This document shows positions 1,639-19,454 of a stretch of DNA of 41,009 bases, piece after piece; position 1 is the first letter of the stretch, and each line of letters opens with the position of its first letter. The notes under the pieces are model-generated. The model did no database searches. It saw nothing but the letters and a program-made list of their open reading frames with translations, and was not told the origin of the DNA. The stretch comes from a virus. The stretch lies in the IMG/VR virus record IMGVR_UViG_3300023179_000220, positions 1 through 41,009 of that record, one strand, 5' to 3'. A program made the translations under genes and the position numbers.

Positions 1639-1874
1639 TCAGCTTTGGCACACCCCTTTGGCAGCAACGTCTTGAATTTGCCATCCGTCAATGGTGGTTT
1701 GAAAAGACGTTACCAGCCAAATTGGATAAAGCCGAAGCTGAATGGCATAAAGCACAACCATTGCCGCCACCGCCAATCGTAATAGAACACCCTATTAACG
1801 ATGAGTTACAAACAGGCGATAGTCGCTTGTTAGGTGGTGAAATTTCAATCCATGCACCCTATAAGCGCTCATGA
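1632..1874 (+). CDS. Frameshift extension of the 46-aa membrane protein (about 80 aa)
   Basis: Read in the -1 frame from the slippery heptamer, the extension is about 80 residues: an aromatic, charged helix (FGTPLWQQRLEFAIRQWWFE), KTLPAKLDKAEAEWHKAQ, a proline run (PLPPPPI) and a polar tail ending APYKRS. The fusion product would be about 125 residues with an N-terminal membrane segment and a long soluble C-terminus. Without frameshifting, the only candidate start at its beginning is CTG 1635, which overlaps the previous TGA as CTGA; an in-frame TTG lies far inside. The TGA at 1872-1874 overlaps the ATG of the endolysin (ATGA). The frame is probably coding; which mechanism expresses it is inferred. 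Confidence 0.6.
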   Translation, partial: GLISFGTPLWQQRLEFAIRQWWFEKTLPAKLDKAEAEWHKAQPLPPPPIVIEHPINDELQTGDSRLLGGEISIHAPYKRS

Positions 1875-3010
1875 ATTTTTTAGCAGCGGCCAAAGCAACA
1901 ACAAAGCCGCCGTTGCCACATCAGCAGGCGGCATGGACATGGGCATGGGAACTGTTAGCACCAGATGAACAAAAAACATTCCTCGATAAATTCAGGGCTG
2001 ACCCAGCGCCAAAACCCACATTGGCATGGGAGCCTGCGGCGAAACTTATACGCGAATTTGAAGGTTTTAGTGATGTAGCATACATTTGTCCTGCCGGTGT
2101 GCCAACCATCGGCTGGGGCACCATTAGATGGCCTGATGGCGCAGCAGTAAAAATCGGCGATACCATCACACGCGATGCTGCTGATGGGTTGCTGGATAAT
2201 ATGCTAGAAACTCAGGTTGTACCGGCGTTAGCAAAAACAATACCAGGCTGGAAAACATTATCAGCGCATAGGCAAAATGCGTTGATCTCGTTTGCCTATA
2301 ACGTAGGTTGGCATTTTTGCGGTAGCGCAGATTTCGTAACGATTAGTAAATGCCTCCGCGAGTCGGATTACGACGCAGTGCCAGCGGCATTGATGTTATA
2401 CATAAATGCTGGCACACCAGCAGAACCTGGCCTCCGCCGTAGACGTGAAGCCGAGGCAAAACTCTGGGGCATCAGCCAAAAGGCAACATCAGTGTTACTG
2501 AAAGTGCCCTATGAGGCGCAAAATGATAACAAAAGCGGCACTGGTTATAGAGAATGTTTCTCCAGTAGTTGCGCGATGATTGCTAAGTTTTACGGCAAAG
2601 TAAAGAGCGATGATGAATATAATTTGATTCGGGCCAAGTTTGGCGATACGACCGACAGCCAAGCGCAACTTTCAACACTGCGTTCTTTAGGTTTACAAGC
2701 CAGATTTGCGACCAACTGCGCCCCAGGGTTGCTGGAGCTTGAACTACGTGCTGGGAGGCCTGTAGCGGTGGGTTGGCTGCACAAAGGGCCTGCGCAGTCA
2801 CCTAGCGGTGGTGGACACTGGAGCGTCGTAATTGGGTTTACTGCTGAGCATTGGATTCTGAACGACCCAAACGGTGAGGCTAATCTCGTTAATGGTGGCT
2901 ATGTCAAAAATACCGGGGGTGCCGGTATTAAGTATTCGAAAGAACGCTTCAATCGCCGTTGGATGCCAGATGGCGTTAGTACAGGCTGGGCGCTGTTGGT
3001 GAAGCCATGA
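1871..3010 (+). CDS. Endolysin: GH24 lysozyme fused to C39-like peptidase
   Basis: A 379-residue modular lysis enzyme. Residues about 52-200 are a phage lysozyme of GH24: IREFEGFSDVAYICPAGVPTIGWGT carries the catalytic triad positions E64, C73 and T79 with the E+9 and +15 spacing of R21/P1-type lysozymes. This domain should cleave the glycan MurNAc-GlcNAc bond. Residues about 208-379 look like a peptidase C39-like domain: VPYEAQ (Q217), ECFSSSCAM (C229 as nucleophile), GGHWSVVIGF (H316) and LNDPNG (D332), which may cut the peptide stem or a cross-bridge. There is no signal peptide, so it needs a holin. The ATG overlaps the preceding frame as ATGA. Each domain looks complete. Confidence 0.9.
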   Translation: MNFLAAAKATTKPPLPHQQAAWTWAWELLAPDEQKTFLDKFRADPAPKPTLAWEPAAKLIREFEGFSDVAYICPAGVPTIGWGTIRWPDGAAVKIGDTITRDAADGLLDNMLETQVVPALAKTIPGWKTLSAHRQNALISFAYNVGWHFCGSADFVTISKCLRESDYDAVPAALMLYINAGTPAEPGLRRRREAEAKLWGISQKATSVLLKVPYEAQNDNKSGTGYRECFSSSCAMIAKFYGKVKSDDEYNLIRAKFGDTTDSQAQLSTLRSLGLQARFATNCAPGLLELELRAGRPVAVGWLHKGPAQSPSGGGHWSVVIGFTAEHWILNDPNGEANLVNGGYVKNTGGAGIKYSKERFNRRWMPDGVSTGWALLVKP

Positions 3011-5595: not shown

Positions 5596-5946
5596 TTAAA
5601 AAGCGTCGAGTTCGTTCGTATTATTAGCAGCCCGTGGTAAAAATTCAAACCTGCTAACACTTATTATATGTTTACTACGCTTTTCACCTGTTTGCTTATC
5701 TGCCCATTCCTGACGCCGTATGGTGCCAGTAACTTGAATGCTGTCACCCTTTTTGCATTTATCGCATATTAATTCAGCCGATTTGCCCCATATTTCGCAG
5801 TCGATACCATTGTTAATGTATTCTCCATTTTTATCTTTGCCCTCACCGATACCACCGAACAGGTTAGCAACTTGCGTGCCATTATCAAACGTGCGGATGG
5901 TGGGTTGCGTGATGATACGAACAATGCCGGTAGCAAATAAACTCAT
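5596..5946 (-). CDS. ssb: Single-stranded DNA-binding protein
   Basis: A 116-residue OB-fold [37 protein letters not shown], then DCEIWGKSAELICDKCKKGDSIQVTGTIRRQEW, then SKHIISVSRFEFL. It has the usual variable loop and ends in a short acidic tail with a terminal aromatic residue (NELDAF), the partner-docking tip of SSBs. It coats ssDNA during replication and recombination and probably works with the RecT-like protein of the same operon. It is shorter than bacterial SSBs because the linker is missing. Its ATG overlaps the upstream HTH gene stop (ATGA). Confidence 0.92.
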   Translation of the reverse strand: MSLFATGIVRIITQPTIRTFDNGTQVANLFGGIGEGKDKNGEYINNGIDCEIWGKSAELICDKCKKGDSIQVTGTIRRQEWADKQTGEKRSKHIISVSRFEFLPRAANNTNELDAF

Positions 5947-6155
5947 GGTTCTAATGGGGTGATGTTGTGGGCGGCTTCAAAAGCCAGAATTTGTGTTAGC
6001 AAATAGCGAACACGCGGAGCACCAAGCGGTGAGGCTAGGCGTTCAGCGGTTTCATACGGTGGGCCAACCCCACGCGCACGTTGAGATTTTAAGGTAGAGG
6101 GCCGCAGCCCCCACCTAGCAGCTAACTGGTCAGTAGTCAGGTGGGGCTCAGTCAT
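5943..6155 (-). CDS. Helix-turn-helix (HTH_17/MerR-like) DNA-binding protein
   Basis: I start it at the ATG at 6155 ([10 protein letters not shown]), which overlaps the Bet gene end by 8 bases; the longer frame to 6194 lies inside bet. The 70 residues read [55 protein letters not shown], the winged HTH_17 pattern (LTT.e.A..lgv...Tl..wR..g.GPpy....g..vRY....v..fe). Such proteins act as excisionases, AlpA-like activators or recombination directionality factors. With no integrase in sight, a regulator of this operon is the simpler reading. Confidence 0.78.
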
Positions 6156-6912
6156 CAGCGAATGGGTCAGCCTCTTGCCGGGTTTCCATAGCATCTTCTT
6201 TAGTTACTGCCATCTGCAATAACTCCTGATACTGCTCAGCGCTCAGGTCGTTTTGGCGTGCCTCTAGCCGTTTGGTAACAACTTCTAGCTCGTCTAACGT
6301 GCTGCATTTAGCAATCGCTGCTTTACCAGCAGCAAAAATCTTGGCATCGCCAGCAGGTGCAGCAGGTGCTAACGCTGGGGGAGGTGTTGCAGTCACAGTC
6401 ACCGTCTCGGCCTGTTCCATTTCGTCTGCTGTATACAGCGACGACATATCAGCAGGGAATGCCTTCCTGAGCGCTAATGCTTCCGAACATTTGGCCAGCA
6501 TTGCAGCAGGCATCTTGGACCACAGCCCCTGCCCTGCGTTGTAATCCTGGAAACGGGCCACTCCAACAAATGGATGGCTGCTGCCCTTGCGGTAAACAAT
6601 AGTCTTGGCAGCGGCTGGTGGTGTCTTGCCTAGCCATACATCCTTCCAGTCACCTTCCTCACCGCACCAGTAGGTTTCACTCCCATCTAGCTGGCCAGTA
6701 CGCTCGGCGATACTGCGCAAGCCATCAATGCCCACTTGTATGCTCATCTTGCCCCCGCGCTTGATGGCGTAGATCTGTTTGCTAAATGGATCTAAACCTG
6801 ACCGCTGGCACGCATAGCTAAATAATTTGAGCTCATCTGCCGTACAACCTGGCGCAATGGTGCTCGAGATCAGTTGCGTTTGCTCTTGGGTCCATTGTGT
6901 AATGGCGCTCAT
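6148..6912 (-). CDS. bet: RecT/Bet-family single-strand annealing protein
   Basis: I start it at the ATG at 6912 ([15 protein letters not shown]), where AGAGGA lies 7 bases upstream and TAATG overlaps the previous stop. This gives 254 residues. The core [56 protein letters not shown]...WARF...[23 protein letters not shown] is the lambda Bet (phage recombination protein Bet) signature. It anneals complementary single strands. A Pro/Ala-rich linker (about residues 175-195) leads to a C-terminal helical tail that may bind SSB or the exonuclease. The partner nuclease is the gene just upstream. Confidence 0.93.
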
Positions 6913-13322: not shown

Positions 13323-13656
13323 GTAACAGATCGTTGCGTGTTACACCTTGTTACGGTGCTGTTACGCTGAGATCCCTTGCGCTGCAACCGTTGTCACGAT
13401 GTTACGCCTGTTACGCTAAAAACAAAACACAACCCCATAGAGATACATATACACATCCCCCCTCTCACACCCTTAGAGACACCCTCTCTATATATATATA
13501 TTTTATTTTAAAAAAAATGTAACAACGTAACAAACGCTGCGCTGCAAGGATTTTGGGCGTAACACGGACCGTAACAGGGCGTAACAAGCGTAACAGGCTT
13601 TTGTTGCGCAATATTAAGCAAAGTAGACCTAACTGCACTTGCTGGTTAGTGTTACG
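13323..13656. other. Candidate replication origin: opposed TGTTACG iterons around an AT-rich core
   Basis: This gene-free stretch (13284-13673) holds 13 copies of GTTAC/GTAAC. The left cluster reads TGTTAC at 13339, 13349, 13360, 13400 and 13409 (plus GTAACA at 13323). The right cluster reads the reverse complement, GTAACA, at 13519, 13527, 13559, 13571, 13581 and 13590. One more TGTTACG is at 13650. Spacing within clusters is mostly 9-12 bases, about a helical turn. Between them are a pyrimidine-rich stretch and 30 bases of pure A/T (13489-13518). Iterons plus a melting element beside the primase-helicase fit an origin. Operator function is the alternative. Confidence 0.62.
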
Positions 13657-13673: not shown

Positions 13674-13868
13674 GTGGTGCTTATTATTTCTGAACGCAAC
13701 CGCCCCTGCATCGACCGACTAGACGCATTAATGGCTGAAGCCGTGGCGGTAGCAAATGCCATCCGCGACAATGCCCAAGACGAGCAGCAACCCATACCGC
13801 CTGAACTGGTCTATAGCTTCAGCCGCGACTACGATAAAATTATTACCGCTCTATCGGATGCGTCATGA
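13674..13868 (+). CDS. Small hypothetical protein (64 aa)
   Basis: Starts at GTG 13674 or the adjacent GTG 13677. The product (ISERNRPCIDRLDALMAEAVAVANAIRDNAQDEQQPIPPELVYSFSRDYDKIITALSDAS) is a helical, acidic protein with no recognised domain. Its stop overlaps the next gene as ATGA, which argues that it is translated. It is the first gene after the origin candidate. Confidence 0.6.
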   Translation: MVLIISERNRPCIDRLDALMAEAVAVANAIRDNAQDEQQPIPPELVYSFSRDYDKIITALSDAS

Positions 13869-14620
13869 GTATTAGTTTTAATGGTCAAAAGCTAGATCGT
13901 GAGCTTGACCTTATTGTAAGAGTTCAATTACCATTTTTAGCTGCTGTTACCGTTAATCGTCTTGGCACCGTCGTTCGTCAGGCATTGCAGCATGAAATGA
14001 AAGATTCTTTTAAAAGCCTCAGTGCATTTACTTATAAATCTCCGCTATATCGCCATCTTGCAACTAAAGCGCAACCGTATACAACTATTTATTTACGTGA
14101 TGAAGCAACTAAAGGTCAGCCGCCTTCAACTTATTTGTTACCGCAAATCCTTGGTGGTATGGTATACAAAACTAGATTTCAAGAACGCTTAGCTTCACAG
14201 TTATCAAATTACAATGGTAGGTATATGTTCCCATTACATGAATCACCAGCAGCTAAGCGCAACCAGCAAGGTCGCATACGTGCATCGCAATACGTTGAGG
14301 CGTTATATGGCATCAAGGCATTTGAAGACATCAGGGCATCTATGCGACCTGGTAGATACCGCACTGAAGGCAGCCACGTCTACGTGCCCTATGTGGGGGG
14401 CAGGAAGGAGCTTGCAAAGGTCTATAGGGCTATCGGTAAGGGACAAATGCCTCAGCCGGGCATATACCGCGTTAAAAGCGGCAACCTGACGCAATTGTTC
14501 AGGCAGCTTGAAGCAGTGCCATCAGTGCAAAAAAGTTTTGATTTTAATTATGCTGCTGAAGTGGCGGTGCAAGCTAATGCGGGCGCGATATTTGACGCGG
14601 CAGTCAAACAATTTGTCTAA
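13865..14620 (+). CDS. Putative phage virion-associated protein, family uncertain
   Basis: 251 residues. The middle part FTYKSPLYRHLATKAQPYTTIYLRDEATKGQPPSTYLLPQILGGMVYKTRFQERLAS follows a pattern I associate with uncharacterised phage structural genes (T...SL...PATKA....V...D...KGTP.S.YL.PQI.GG....KRFE..L), later giving Y..P..ES...N..G.I..SQ. I would expect a minor head or tail component (tail completion), but it sits far upstream of the terminase and no experiment supports a role. It is coupled by ATGA to the preceding gene and followed by a terminator candidate. Confidence 0.6.
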   Translation: MSISFNGQKLDRELDLIVRVQLPFLAAVTVNRLGTVVRQALQHEMKDSFKSLSAFTYKSPLYRHLATKAQPYTTIYLRDEATKGQPPSTYLLPQILGGMVYKTRFQERLASQLSNYNGRYMFPLHESPAAKRNQQGRIRASQYVEALYGIKAFEDIRASMRPGRYRTEGSHVYVPYVGGRKELAKVYRAIGKGQMPQPGIYRVKSGNLTQLFRQLEAVPSVQKSFDFNYAAEVAVQANAGAIFDAAVKQFV

Positions 14621-14636
14621 AAAATTTTGGACTTGC

Positions 14637-14662
14637 AAGGGGTCGGTTTTAGGGCCTTTTTT
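14637..14662 (+). terminator. Rho-independent terminator candidate
   Basis: AAGGGGTC (14637-14644) can pair with GGCCTTTT (14653-14660) around an 8-base loop, using three G-U wobbles, and six T follow the GGCC (14657-14662). It lies 17 bases past the stop at 14620, the right place to end the transcript from the origin region. The wobbles make the stem weak. Confidence 0.45.
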
Positions 14663-14727
14663 ACACACGGCTGCAAGGTGGTTTAAGGTATTATTTTTCG
14701 ACGCAAATATATAAAAAAGTGGTCTCT

Positions 14728-14791
14728 AGTACTAACGTACTATAGTACATTTGTATCATAGTACACACGTACTATAGTACATTTGTACTAG
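14728..14791. repeat. Tandem 32-bp repeat built of eight GTAC octamers
   Basis: The gap 14621-15057 has no convincing gene. From 14728, GTAC recurs every 8 bases: 14729, 14737, 14745, (GTAT at 14753), 14761, 14769, 14777 and 14785. The eight octamers form two 32-bp units (14728-14759 and 14760-14791) that share a 21-base identical stretch starting ACGTACTATAGTAC. More GTAC pairs follow at 14847/14855 (again 8 apart) and at 14917/14931. Each site is a palindrome. This looks like a multi-site protein-binding array, maybe controlling the gene at 15058. It is not CRISPR: there are no spacers of the right size. Confidence 0.75.
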
Positions 14792-14804
14792 TGTTATAAC
14801 ATTA

Positions 14805-14849
14805 TACTATTGTGCCGTTATATTGTTATATAACAGTGCCGCAATAGTA
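14805..14849. repeat. Large interrupted inverted repeat beside the GTAC array
   Basis: TACTATTG (14805-14812) pairs with CAATAGTA (14842-14849), and inside it GTTATA (14817-14822) pairs with TATAAC (14829-14834), leaving an internal loop (TGCC against AGTGCCG) and a 6-base apex. The outer arm touches a GTAC site. It could form a hairpin in RNA or a cruciform, or be a composite operator. The remaining gap to 15057 also has a short AGCGC/GCGCT hairpin at 15015-15030. Confidence 0.55.
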
Positions 14850-15057
14850 CCAATGTACTAGTAAGAATGGTTCCCATTGTCAAGTCGGTGCGCCTATGCA
14901 TCGGCGCCTTTGAATAGTACACCTCCTATAGTACAGTTGGGCTATTGTTAAGAAATATAAACTTTTGGCGGCTAATTGCTAGCTATTGGCTGAATTTGGT
15001 CTATGTTGACGCCGAGCGCAATCCAGCGCTTAATTATTCCAACCGCTTTTAATTCAC

Positions 15058-15636
15058 ATGGGCCGCTACTTAAACCGCTGTTTAGTTGCCACTAAAAACC
15101 CTGCCGGCCACGGATTCTTAGATCATTCAGCGCCGGCCGCATGGCTAGGGCAGCACTTAGCAGTTACCCCGCCACCGGGCAAGGATTACCTGTTCGCCAC
15201 TGTTCCCGGTTGTTGGACTATTACCCACCGCGGTTGCGGTTGGGCATTAGCAACGCTTCGCTGTTCACTTAAAACAGCGGTAAAGCTTGCTAAGGAATGG
15301 GATCAACGGGCCGGCAGTATTGATCCTTTGGACTCTAAATCCTGGCAATATTGCCAGTTATGGGGTAAAGCGGTTCAAGCGATTAATTGCCCTTGGCAGA
15401 GTATTGATGCAGAGGACCACGGCGAGACCGCGGCAATATTGGCCGCCGACCGTGGCTTGTCTATTGATCAGGCTGGAAACCATAAAAGGATCCAATGGCG
15501 CGGTAAGTATTGGCCAGCCCCTACGGATGCAGAATTAGAAGGTTGGACCGTTGACAGCGTATGCGAAACCCCAGATGGCCGCATAGTTGAACCGGATAAT
15601 TCGGAGAGTTGGCTAACTATTCTCGGGTTGGTTTAA
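15058..15636 (+). CDS. Hypothetical protein, accessory module gene 1 (192 aa)
   Basis: 192 residues rich in Trp and Cys. The segment FATVPGCWTITHRGCGWALATLRCSLKTAVKLAKEWDQRAGSIDPLDSKSW recalls small phage and plasmid proteins of the type 'W.(I/V)TH...G......S...A...A..L......W', none with a known role. There is no ribosome binding site, as for many genes here. Codon use is slightly more G/C-rich than that of the helicase. It begins the short run that ends at the terminator 16875-16900. I do not recognise it. Confidence 0.65.
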   Translation: MGRYLNRCLVATKNPAGHGFLDHSAPAAWLGQHLAVTPPPGKDYLFATVPGCWTITHRGCGWALATLRCSLKTAVKLAKEWDQRAGSIDPLDSKSWQYCQLWGKAVQAINCPWQSIDAEDHGETAAILAADRGLSIDQAGNHKRIQWRGKYWPAPTDAELEGWTVDSVCETPDGRIVEPDNSESWLTILGLV

Positions 15637-15704
15637 ACCTGTGAACTATGCGGTGGTGATTTTTACTTAAACATTATTTAATCCAGCCTTTAATTATCTA
15701 AATC

Positions 15705-16900: not shown

Positions 16901-16913
16901 ATTAGAAACAATA

Positions 16914-16961
16914 TTGCATTATCGTTATATAATTGTATTGCATTATCGTTATATAATTGTA
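16914..16961. repeat. Two perfect tandem 24-bp repeats, each with TATAAT
   Basis: A 24-base unit beginning TTGCATTATCGTTATATAAT is repeated without a gap (16914-16937 and 16938-16961), followed by a third start (TTGC) that breaks off. Each unit carries TATAAT (16928-16933 and 16952-16957). The TTGCAT boxes are only 8 bases before them, so a normal sigma-70 spacing is not met; -10 elements for another sigma, or operator sites, are possible. It lies upstream of the terminase genes. Confidence 0.7.
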
Positions 16962-16982
16962 TTGCCACAAAATATTAGGGTC

Positions 16983-17128: not shown

Positions 17129-17623
17129 TTGTTAATAACGTTTTCAGAATTAGCGGCAATTAAGGGATGCTCAAAAGCAGCAGTTACCCATGCGTGTAAA
17201 TCACGTATTGCAGCAGCAGTTGTAGAAGAAAATGGCAAACGCTACGTTGATAGAGACATGGCGCTAGAATTATGGAATCGTAATACACTAAGAACATATA
17301 GCGCAAAGGTAAGCGCACCAGACGACGTAAAGCTTAGCGACGATCAAATCCCTGAGCTTAACATAAGCAGGGAGCGGCGCGAGCATTACCAAGCAGAATT
17401 AGCAAAACTACAGGTTTCACAGCAACGTAAGGAGTTGTTACCAGCGGAAGATATTAAGAAGCAAGCATTTCAGCTTGGCCGTACTATCCGCGAGGCATTA
17501 GCTAATTTGGCTGATAGGCTTAGCCACCAGTTAGCTGGTGAGACTGACCCAACAGTGATCCATAAGTTATTGAGTGATGAACACCGTGCAGCACTGATGG
17601 AGCTAAGTGATGACGATCTATAG
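17129..17623 (+). CDS. Terminase small subunit (Nu1-like)
   Basis: 164 residues. N-terminal helix-turn-helix (ITFSELAAIKGCSKAAVTHACKSRIAAAVVEENGKRYVDRDMALELW) that would bind the packaging site, then a charged coiled coil (about 80-115, ISRERREHYQAELAKLQVSQQRKELLPAEDIKKQAF) and a helical tail (IREALANLADRLSHQLAGETDPTVIHKLLSDEHRAALMEL). This fits Nu1-type small terminases. The frame has only TTG 17129 near its start (TAA at 17120), so it probably uses TTG; upstream is a palindrome. It overlaps the large subunit by 14 bases. Confidence 0.83.
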   Translation: MLITFSELAAIKGCSKAAVTHACKSRIAAAVVEENGKRYVDRDMALELWNRNTLRTYSAKVSAPDDVKLSDDQIPELNISRERREHYQAELAKLQVSQQRKELLPAEDIKKQAFQLGRTIREALANLADRLSHQLAGETDPTVIHKLLSDEHRAALMELSDDDL

Positions 17624-19454
17624 AACAGCGTTCATGAATGGGTTGCGGCCCGATCCAGTGTTAACGGTAAGCGAATGGGCTGATGCTCACAGGAGGCTTA
17701 GCAGTAAGGCAAGCGCGGAACCTGGGCCATGGCGCACTAATAGGACGCCATATTTAAAGGAGCCGATGGATTGCCTTAGCACTAATAGCGGCATCCAACG
17801 TGTGGTGATGATGTTTGCTGCGCAGACGGGCAAGACTGAAAGTGGCAGCAACTGGTTGGGTTATGTGATTGCACATGCGCCGGGTCCGATGCTGCTGGTG
17901 CAACCTACGGTAGAGATGGCAAAGAGGTTATCAAAGCAGAGGCTGGAGTCGCTTATTAGCGAGACACCATGCTTAAACGATAAGATTGCACCGTCAAGAA
18001 GTAGAGATAGCGGTAATACGATGTTGGCGAAGGAGTTCCCAGGCGGCATGATGTTGCTGACTGGTGCTAATAGCGCAACTGGGTTGCGGTCTACACCATG
18101 TCGTTATATTTTTATGGATGAGGTTGATGCGTTCCCTGCTGATGTAGATGGCGAGGGTGATCCTGTTAGCTTGGCGGAAAAACGTGCTACTACATTTGCT
18201 AGGCGTAAGATTTTACTTACTAGCACACCAACGGTAAAAGATTTTAGCCGTATTGAGGCTGAGTATTTACGTAGTGACCAGCGGCGTTTTTATGTTCCAT
18301 GCCCTAAGTGTGGCGTAAAGGAATGGCTAAAGTGGGCACAACTTAAATGGGAAAATAATGATCCTAATACTGCGCAATACGAATGCGAGCATTGCGGTGA
18401 AAGATTTAGTGATATACATAAACCAATGATGTTACGCGAAGGTGAATGGCGAGCTACGGCACCATTTGATGGTAAAACGGCTGGTTTTCAATTATCGGGT
18501 TTGTACTCACCATTAGGGTGGCTTAGTTGGGCTGATATGGTTGACGATTTTTTACGTGCAAAGTCTGATGCACCAATGCTTAAGAGCTTTGTTAATACTA
18601 GATTGGCTGAGACATGGGAAGAAGATTATGCAAGCAAGGTAGATGCTGCTGGGTTAATAGATAAGTGTGAACATTATGAACCTGGCATTATACCAGCAGA
18701 TGCATGGGCATTGACCGTAGGCGTTGACGTACAAGGTGGTGGCGGCAGTATTGGCGACCGCTTAGCTATTAGCGTATGGGCGTGGGGCCGTGAGGAGGAA
18801 GGATGGTTGGTGCATCACCAAGAGATATTCGGTGATCCATGCCGTGCTGATGTATGGAAGCAACTAGATGAGTTGTTGTTACGTGAATGGCCACATGCTA
18901 ATGGTGGTGGGTTTAGGCCAGATGCAGTTTGTGTTGATAGTGGCGGCCATGCAACGGCTGAGGTTTATCAATATGCAAGAGAACGCGGCAGGCAAAATGT
19001 AATTGCGATTAAAGGCCAAAGCCAACGCGGTAAGGCACCAATTGGCAAGGCTGCTAAGGTAGATATTAATAGCAAGGGCCAACAATTAAAGCGTGGTGCA
19101 TTGGTATATCCAGTTGGCGGTGATACTATAAAAACAACATTATTTGCGCGATTAAAACATAACGAGGCATTGCATTTTCATATGGGTACACCAGCGGAAT
19201 ATTTTGAGCAGTTAACAGCAGAAAAGCAGGCGTTGAAGTATGTAAAAGGGTTCCCGGTACGTGAATGGGTAAAGAAGCCCGGTGCGCGTAATGAAGCGTT
19301 GGACTGCTTGGTATATGCGTATGCCGGTTTGAACTGGTTGTATCAGCGATATGACAGGCGAACAATATGGGATCAATTAGAGCGGCGACTAGAAAGCAAG
19401 CCAAAAGCCAAGGCGGTGCTAAAATCAAGCAAACCCTTTGTTAGTAACTGGTGA
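17610..19454 (+). CDS. Terminase large subunit (lambda gpA family)
   Basis: 614 residues from ATG 17610 (GGAG at 17599-17602; GTG 17607 is the alternative). N-terminal ATPase: QRVVMMFAAQTGKTESGS (Walker A, about 71-76), LLVQPT, MLLTGANSATGLRSTPCRYIFMDEVDAFP (Walker B, D170 E171). Zinc ribbon CPKCGVKEW...CEHCGERF. C-terminal nuclease: LTVGVDVQGGG and VCVDSGGHATAEVYQYAR, with NEALDCLVYAYAGL at the end. It drives DNA into the prohead and cuts at cos. Length and order are those of the gpA family (PF05876). Confidence 0.96.
   Translation: MTIYRTAFMNGLRPDPVLTVSEWADAHRRLSSKASAEPGPWRTNRTPYLKEPMDCLSTNSGIQRVVMMFAAQTGKTESGSNWLGYVIAHAPGPMLLVQPTVEMAKRLSKQRLESLISETPCLNDKIAPSRSRDSGNTMLAKEFPGGMMLLTGANSATGLRSTPCRYIFMDEVDAFPADVDGEGDPVSLAEKRATTFARRKILLTSTPTVKDFSRIEAEYLRSDQRRFYVPCPKCGVKEWLKWAQLKWENNDPNTAQYECEHCGERFSDIHKPMMLREGEWRATAPFDGKTAGFQLSGLYSPLGWLSWADMVDDFLRAKSDAPMLKSFVNTRLAETWEEDYASKVDAAGLIDKCEHYEPGIIPADAWALTVGVDVQGGGGSIGDRLAISVWAWGREEEGWLVHHQEIFGDPCRADVWKQLDELLLREWPHANGGGFRPDAVCVDSGGHATAEVYQYARERGRQNVIAIKGQSQRGKAPIGKAAKVDINSKGQQLKRGALVYPVGGDTIKTTLFARLKHNEALHFHMGTPAEYFEQLTAEKQALKYVKGFPVREWVKKPGARNEALDCLVYAYAGLNWLYQRYDRRTIWDQLERRLESKPKAKAVLKSSKPFVSNW

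Follow-up and report, generated by a model that had tools for sequence, protein, structure and literature searches.

Candidate host LexA operators in tandem ahead of the late genes of an uncultured cyanosiphophage

Control of phage promoters by the SOS repressor of the host is known from GIL01, a phage of Bacillus thuringiensis, whose promoters P1 and P3 are under the control of host LexA together with gp7 (PMC4551915, PMC6182141). The late promoter P3 of this phage carries tandem LexA boxes that are used with gp7 (PMC6182141). In the CTX phage of Vibrio cholerae, LexA acts at PrstA (described in PMC9502458). In cyanobacteria, the LexA (SOS) box has the consensus AGTACWNWTGTACT and is located upstream of lexA, recA, uvrA, and ssb (PMC3091678). 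A literature search turned up no account of cyanophage promoters controlled by LexA. The cyanophage P-SS2 has an integrase and no identifiable repressor (PMC2784084), and the paper on S-LBS1 reports an integrase and does not mention a repressor.

We analyzed the 41,009 nucleotides of IMG/VR virus record IMGVR_UViG_3300023179_000220 (positions 1 to 41,009; hereafter the window). The window is a siphophage genome, encoding a lambda-type terminase, portal, capsid, tape measure, lysozyme, sigma factor, SSB, RecT, exonuclease, helicase, and primase. The RecT, PDDEXK exonuclease, and VRR-NUC proteins are 61–73% identical to those of Synechococcus phage S-H1, the lysozyme, portal, and capsid proteins are 57–63% identical to those of S-CBS1, and the sigma factor is closest to those of S-CBS1, S-CBS3, and KBS-S-2A (39–41% identical). 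Protein identity places the window among the cyanosiphophages, as a relative of the Synechococcus phages S-H1, S-CBS1, and S-CBS3, and its host, judged by this kinship, is most likely a picocyanobacterium of the Cyanobiaceae. The sample numbers of close relatives suggest that the virus comes from freshwater, presumably a lake.

Between positions 14729 and 14788 the tetramer GTAC recurs in a strict 8-bp ladder (14729, 14737, 14745, 14761, 14769, 14777, and 14785, with GTAT at 14753), followed by a further GTAC pair at 14847/14855 and a direct GTAC pair at 14917/14931. All of these positions are as given by the sequence-only reading, whose claim that such a density is not random is borne out: GTACNNNNGTAC occurs 6 times in the window against 0.38 expected, a count matched by 0 of 100 dinucleotide shuffles, and a 62-bp stretch holds 7 GTAC in the array and at most 2 anywhere else. 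The two 32-base units that it described were recovered by Tandem Repeats Finder as a 32-bp unit present twice at 93% identity. The tetramer taken every 8 bp is not the actual unit, however. What repeats is a 16-bp dimer site, the inverted repeat TAGTAC-N4-GTACTA, present as four copies head to tail with a fifth 70 bp further on. Since 4 bp separate the two halves of each dyad and the TATA junction between neighboring dyads is also 4 bp long, the tetramer shows up at 8-bp steps. Relatives have differing junctions (AT, AC, CA, or ACT) but a constant 14-bp box AGTAC-N4-GTACT, which fixes the register of the dyad and rules out a polymer site built on the GTAC tetramer.

A LexA matrix was built from 48 published cyanobacterial boxes (PMC3091678) and used to scan the window. 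The five highest-scoring sites, none of which is assigned a strand, are exactly the five dyads: box 1 (14727–14742, TAGTACTAACGTACTA, 14.8 bits, aligned in contig L241), box 2 (14743–14758, TAGTACATTTGTATCA, 16.2 bits), box 3 (14759–14774, TAGTACACACGTACTA, 15.9 bits), box 4 (14775–14790, TAGTACATTTGTACTA, 20.2 bits), and, after a gap of 54 bp, box 5 (14845–14860, TAGTACCAATGTACTA, 16.3 bits), with counterparts AATACTAATGTACT in L005 and AGTACTAATGTACT in L241. They are the only LexA sites above 11.4 bits in the window, this being the score of the next best site. Box 4 is a near-perfect consensus and approaches the best published site (20.4 bits); one half of box 2 is degenerate, and this GTATC half is also found as half of some host lexA boxes, e.g., GGTACATCTGTATC. 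The direct TAGTAC half-sites on the + strand at 14915–14934, 14 bp apart, include a weak dyad at 14930 (10.6 bits). All five dyads fit the 14-bp LexA operator pattern (AGTACWNWTGTACT/RGTACNNNDGTWCB). Markov-simulated sequence yields 0.5 sites of at least 14 bits per 41 kb. When the matrix columns were permuted, none of 300 such matrices equaled the LexA matrix in the array region.

The presumed hosts carry both the protein and its sites. LexA domain matches above the family cut-off are present in 73 of 81 Cyanobiaceae genomes, and a GGTACANNTGTATT-like box was identified upstream of lexA in 27 of 33 loci and a CGTACGNCTGTACT-like box upstream of recA in 26 of 30, compared to 0% of the control windows in either case. 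These observations point to the host SOS repressor LexA as the binder of the array. No tandem LexA array was found in the 81 Cyanobiaceae genomes, so the dense phasing is phage-specific.

The array follows a minor-tail-protein-like gene (13865–14620, + strand, 251 aa, phrog_1924), which served as its upstream marker in relatives. The first annotated ORF downstream (15058–15636, + strand) encodes 192 aa of no assigned function and has homologs after the array in L005, L240, and L129. The small and large terminase subunits (17129–19454, + strand) begin the virion and packaging block presumed to be under control of the array. Between boxes 4 and 5 lies an AT-rich spacer (14791–14844, + strand; GTTATAAC/TATACT/GTTATATAAC), which, from its sequence, might act as core promoter for the rightward operon; a sigma-70 consensus scan gave 2 weak promoters against 1.4 expected, none of them convincing. 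Placement of the array ahead of the terminase and virion genes is conserved in relatives, where a promoter is likewise putative.

The sequence-only reading had proposed a search of relatives for the array, and this search shows that it is conserved in diverged relatives. Contigs L005 and L240–L244 were fetched by protein and not by motif, whereas the other array contigs come from a DNA-pattern scan of IMG/VR in which genes were disregarded, so that the latter set is biased towards the motif and not towards its position. In uncultured relatives at 26–98% amino acid identity, arrays with a 16–17-bp step occupy the interval from the minor-tail-like gene to the terminase genes, and in all six protein-fetched contigs the array adjoins the same minor-tail-like gene. 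It is kept in L005 (95% identical DNA) and in L241 (96% identity in the neighboring protein); between the window and L241, 0 of 50 positions in the box arms and 5 of 20 in the spacers have changed (p = 0.0013). Contigs L242–L244, found by a 70% identical neighboring protein, have six to seven boxes each. About 20 motif-fetched contigs encode homologs of window proteins, and where these are 26–38% identical the array is mostly located 110–200 bp past the stop of the minor-tail-like gene; a few contigs, among them L119 and L234, have it approximately 2 kb further on. Relatives with the same genes and free spacing had been named as evidence against a constrained site, but the box-to-box spacing in array-bearing relatives is 16 bp in 37 cases and 17 bp in 5. 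Four related array contigs, all motif-fetched, carry tyrosine integrases, and temperate members of the lineage therefore probably exist. In L228 and L234 a short XRE-type HTH reading frame directly follows the minor-tail-like gene; L234, with its LexA array approximately 2 kb further on, also encodes an integrase.

Phages related by primase at 71% identity or less mostly lack the array, and together gave 2 LexA matrix hits, where permuted matrices averaged 8, which rules out LexA boxes as a general property of the primase group. No array was found in S-CBS1, S-CBS3, S-H1, KBS-S-2A, P-SS2, or S-LBS1, nor in the first 50 kb of S-CBS2 and S-CBS4. The array is thus not essential to the wider group. 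In array-less relatives the minor-tail-like gene and the terminase lie within approximately 200 bp of each other, and a search after this gene for LexA sites of other types (CTGTN8ACAG, GTTCN7GTTC, and GAACN4GTTC) returned one single match. A blastn search of 14600–15700 against phage isolates yielded one chance hit only.

This arrangement is best explained by a silencing element on which proteins bind next to one another, as the sequence-only reading had suggested, and we consider it likely that the array consists of tandem host LexA operators at the presumed late promoter of the cyanosiphophage. We infer from the DNA a promoter inside 14727–14950, its binding by LexA, its repression, and its induction in the SOS response. 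LexA dimers would fill the five boxes, four of them abutting at 16-bp centers, and would hold off the rightward block from 15058 onwards, comprising terminase, head, tail, and lysis genes. Host DNA damage, or single-stranded DNA arising from phage replication, would activate RecA, upon which LexA would cleave itself and the late genes would be turned on. No LexA gene or tyrosine integrase was found in the record; no XRE/CI-type repressor was recognized among the window ORFs scanned, in a record that may be incomplete. With the virion genes lying immediately downstream, host LexA as the late-gene repressor is the simplest model. LexA sites occur only at the array, so the early genes would not be LexA-controlled, and a gate on the late genes is a likelier role than that of a classical full repressor. 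The virus probably reads the SOS alarm of its host to time the making of new particles.

We regard this locus as a putative variant of the host-LexA control already known from GIL01. Both have host LexA boxes at phage promoters, presumed in the case of the array and arranged in tandem in P3. Lysogeny of GIL01 is held by host LexA without a dedicated phage repressor, and likewise none was recognized among the window ORFs scanned; GIL01 does not integrate into the chromosome, in line with the lack of a detected tyrosine integrase in the window record. In P3, however, two boxes are spaced by about two helical turns, whereas the window has four abutting at 16 bp and one more, and the two differ in the phylum of the host, in the sequence of the box, and in the type of phage. 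The early promoter P1 of GIL01 is LexA-controlled as well, while no second LexA site was found in the window; and counterparts of the LexA-modulating gp7 and of gp6 are not named among the several small window ORFs without assigned function. CTX resembles the proposed system in that host LexA directly represses phage genes, as would be the case here, but it has its own repressor RstR too, the region concerned is a different one, and the host is proteobacterial. Each box of the array shares sequence, spacing, and dyad symmetry with those upstream of the cyanobacterial lexA, recA, uvrA, and ssb genes, where, in contrast to the phased phage arrays, one box per gene is predicted (PMC3091678).

It is unlikely, in our assessment, that the dyads are operators of a repressor or activator encoded by the phage itself that shares AGTAC-N4-GTACT by chance. 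More than 100 viral contigs do have tandem pairs of this motif, the majority with no detected homology to the window phage, and the XRE-type reading frames of L228 and L234 would be candidates for such a regulator. However, neither the window nor 44 array contigs yielded a LexA DNA-binding domain, the window ORFs scanned contained no recognizable XRE/CI-type protein, and the exact match to the host lexA and recA boxes would have to be a coincidence. The sole small HTH protein of the window (5943–6194, 83 aa, a weak HTH_17 match) is ruled out as the binder since it is common to the array-less phages S-H1 and KBS-S-2A. Still less probable is that the array is a decoy, titrating LexA as phage copies rise and so freeing the host SOS regulon rather than controlling the phage. 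The array offers five strong sites in each genome, and relatives have as many as seven, with no other site above 11.4 bits in the window, which would suit such a sponge; yet a sponge could be placed freely, and the constant location just before the late genes of diverged phages suggests a local promoter role. The two roles are mutually compatible.

The phased repeats, the AT-rich spacer, the primase gene 1.5 kb upstream, and a cumulative GC skew minimum near 13–14 kb are also what one might expect of replication-origin iterons or of a partition site. We hold this to be very improbable: the partition site that the sequence-only reading had offered alongside silencing finds no ParB-like gene in Pfam and PHROGs scans of the window ORFs, and a stronger origin candidate is present at 13323–13594. 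There, directly after the primase gene, twelve GTTAC/GTAAC pentamers cluster around an AT-rich tract, with GTTAC mostly to its left and GTAAC mostly to its right; this DNA aligns in the array-less relatives L006–L010, L012, and L014 and looks like a replication origin by its sequence. Recent, functionless slippage of the 32-bp repeat, raised earlier on and consistent with the 93% identity of the two units, is scarcely credible. It is refuted by the relatives, in which dyad, position, and 16–17-bp step are kept at 26–38% protein identity with differing spacers and copy numbers, and by the conserved arms and variable spacers of the window and L241.

Beside the tandem LexA operators that we favor lies a degenerate Zur/Fur-type box (14861–14883, no strand assigned, GTAAGAATGGTTCCCATTGTCAA), of which better, repeated copies are present in L005 and L241. 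A Zur box is known in cyanobacteria at znuA/znuC and bmtA (PMC9337993). Against its consensus NTNANAATGATNATCATTNTNAN the window copy has 3 mismatches, which equals background and is not significant alone, while the best copies have 2 in L005 and L241 and 1 in L137, L150, L229, and L236. Boxes resembling GAGAATGATTCTCATTATC lie next to the array in L005, L091, L137, L150, L212, L229, and L236 (best copies 1–2 mismatches), and those of L150 and L229 are interleaved with LexA boxes. At L005 4732–4800 and L241 1415–1460 there are 2–3 copies at 22-bp spacing. These phage boxes, whose role is putative, resemble those upstream of host znuA: in Cyanobiaceae, GAGAATGATTCTCATTATC-like sequences are found at znuA/znuC, a CobW-domain gene, and a ferritin-like gene, and 17 of 20 znuA upstream regions have a site with at most 4 mismatches to the Zur consensus. 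Fur and Zur boxes are alike, and the second box was first read as Fur; the host copies at these genes favor Zur, with Fur as the less likely alternative. That many relatives carry this box hints at a second signal from the host; the window retains a degenerate copy of the box.

We therefore raise, tentatively and as the less probable case, that the late promoter of this uncultured picocyanobacterial siphophage lineage is run by two host stress sensors, LexA for DNA damage (SOS) and Zur for zinc. If so, host proteins would decide on lytic commitment from SOS and metal signals together, with LexA and Zur boxes alternating in some members, and this would explain the control of temperate cyanosiphoviruses in which, as reported for P-SS2, no repressor can be identified. 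For quiet carriage versus lysis in cyanophages without a recognizable repressor, an operator array for host LexA would be a concrete and testable answer in this lineage. Under the LexA model, the late genes would be set free by UV or by replication stress of the host, which would couple damage from sunlight, and possibly also the zinc status, to the production of viruses by abundant picocyanobacteria. The array also provides a DNA signature for finding such phages.

Several other features were observed in the window and its relatives. Just after the minor-tail-like gene, at 14628–14660, lies a GGGACTTGCAAGGGGTCGGTTTA element, of which 1–2 copies are present in the array phages L011, L174, L235, and L242–L244; it is possibly a terminator or a cos/pac-related element. 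A small hydrophobic ORF directly follows the array region in L005 (4974–5250) and in L241 (from 1635, starting MSPSFPPVDHALTLLPALLGAVLVIV...), and the 276 bp holding it in L005 are missing from the window. The gap 5' of the terminase small subunit contains a 24-bp tandem repeat, TATTGCATTATCGTTATATAATTG, in 2.2 exact copies (16912–16965). At 1871–3010, the phage lysozyme is fused to a C39/C70-like papain-type peptidase domain.
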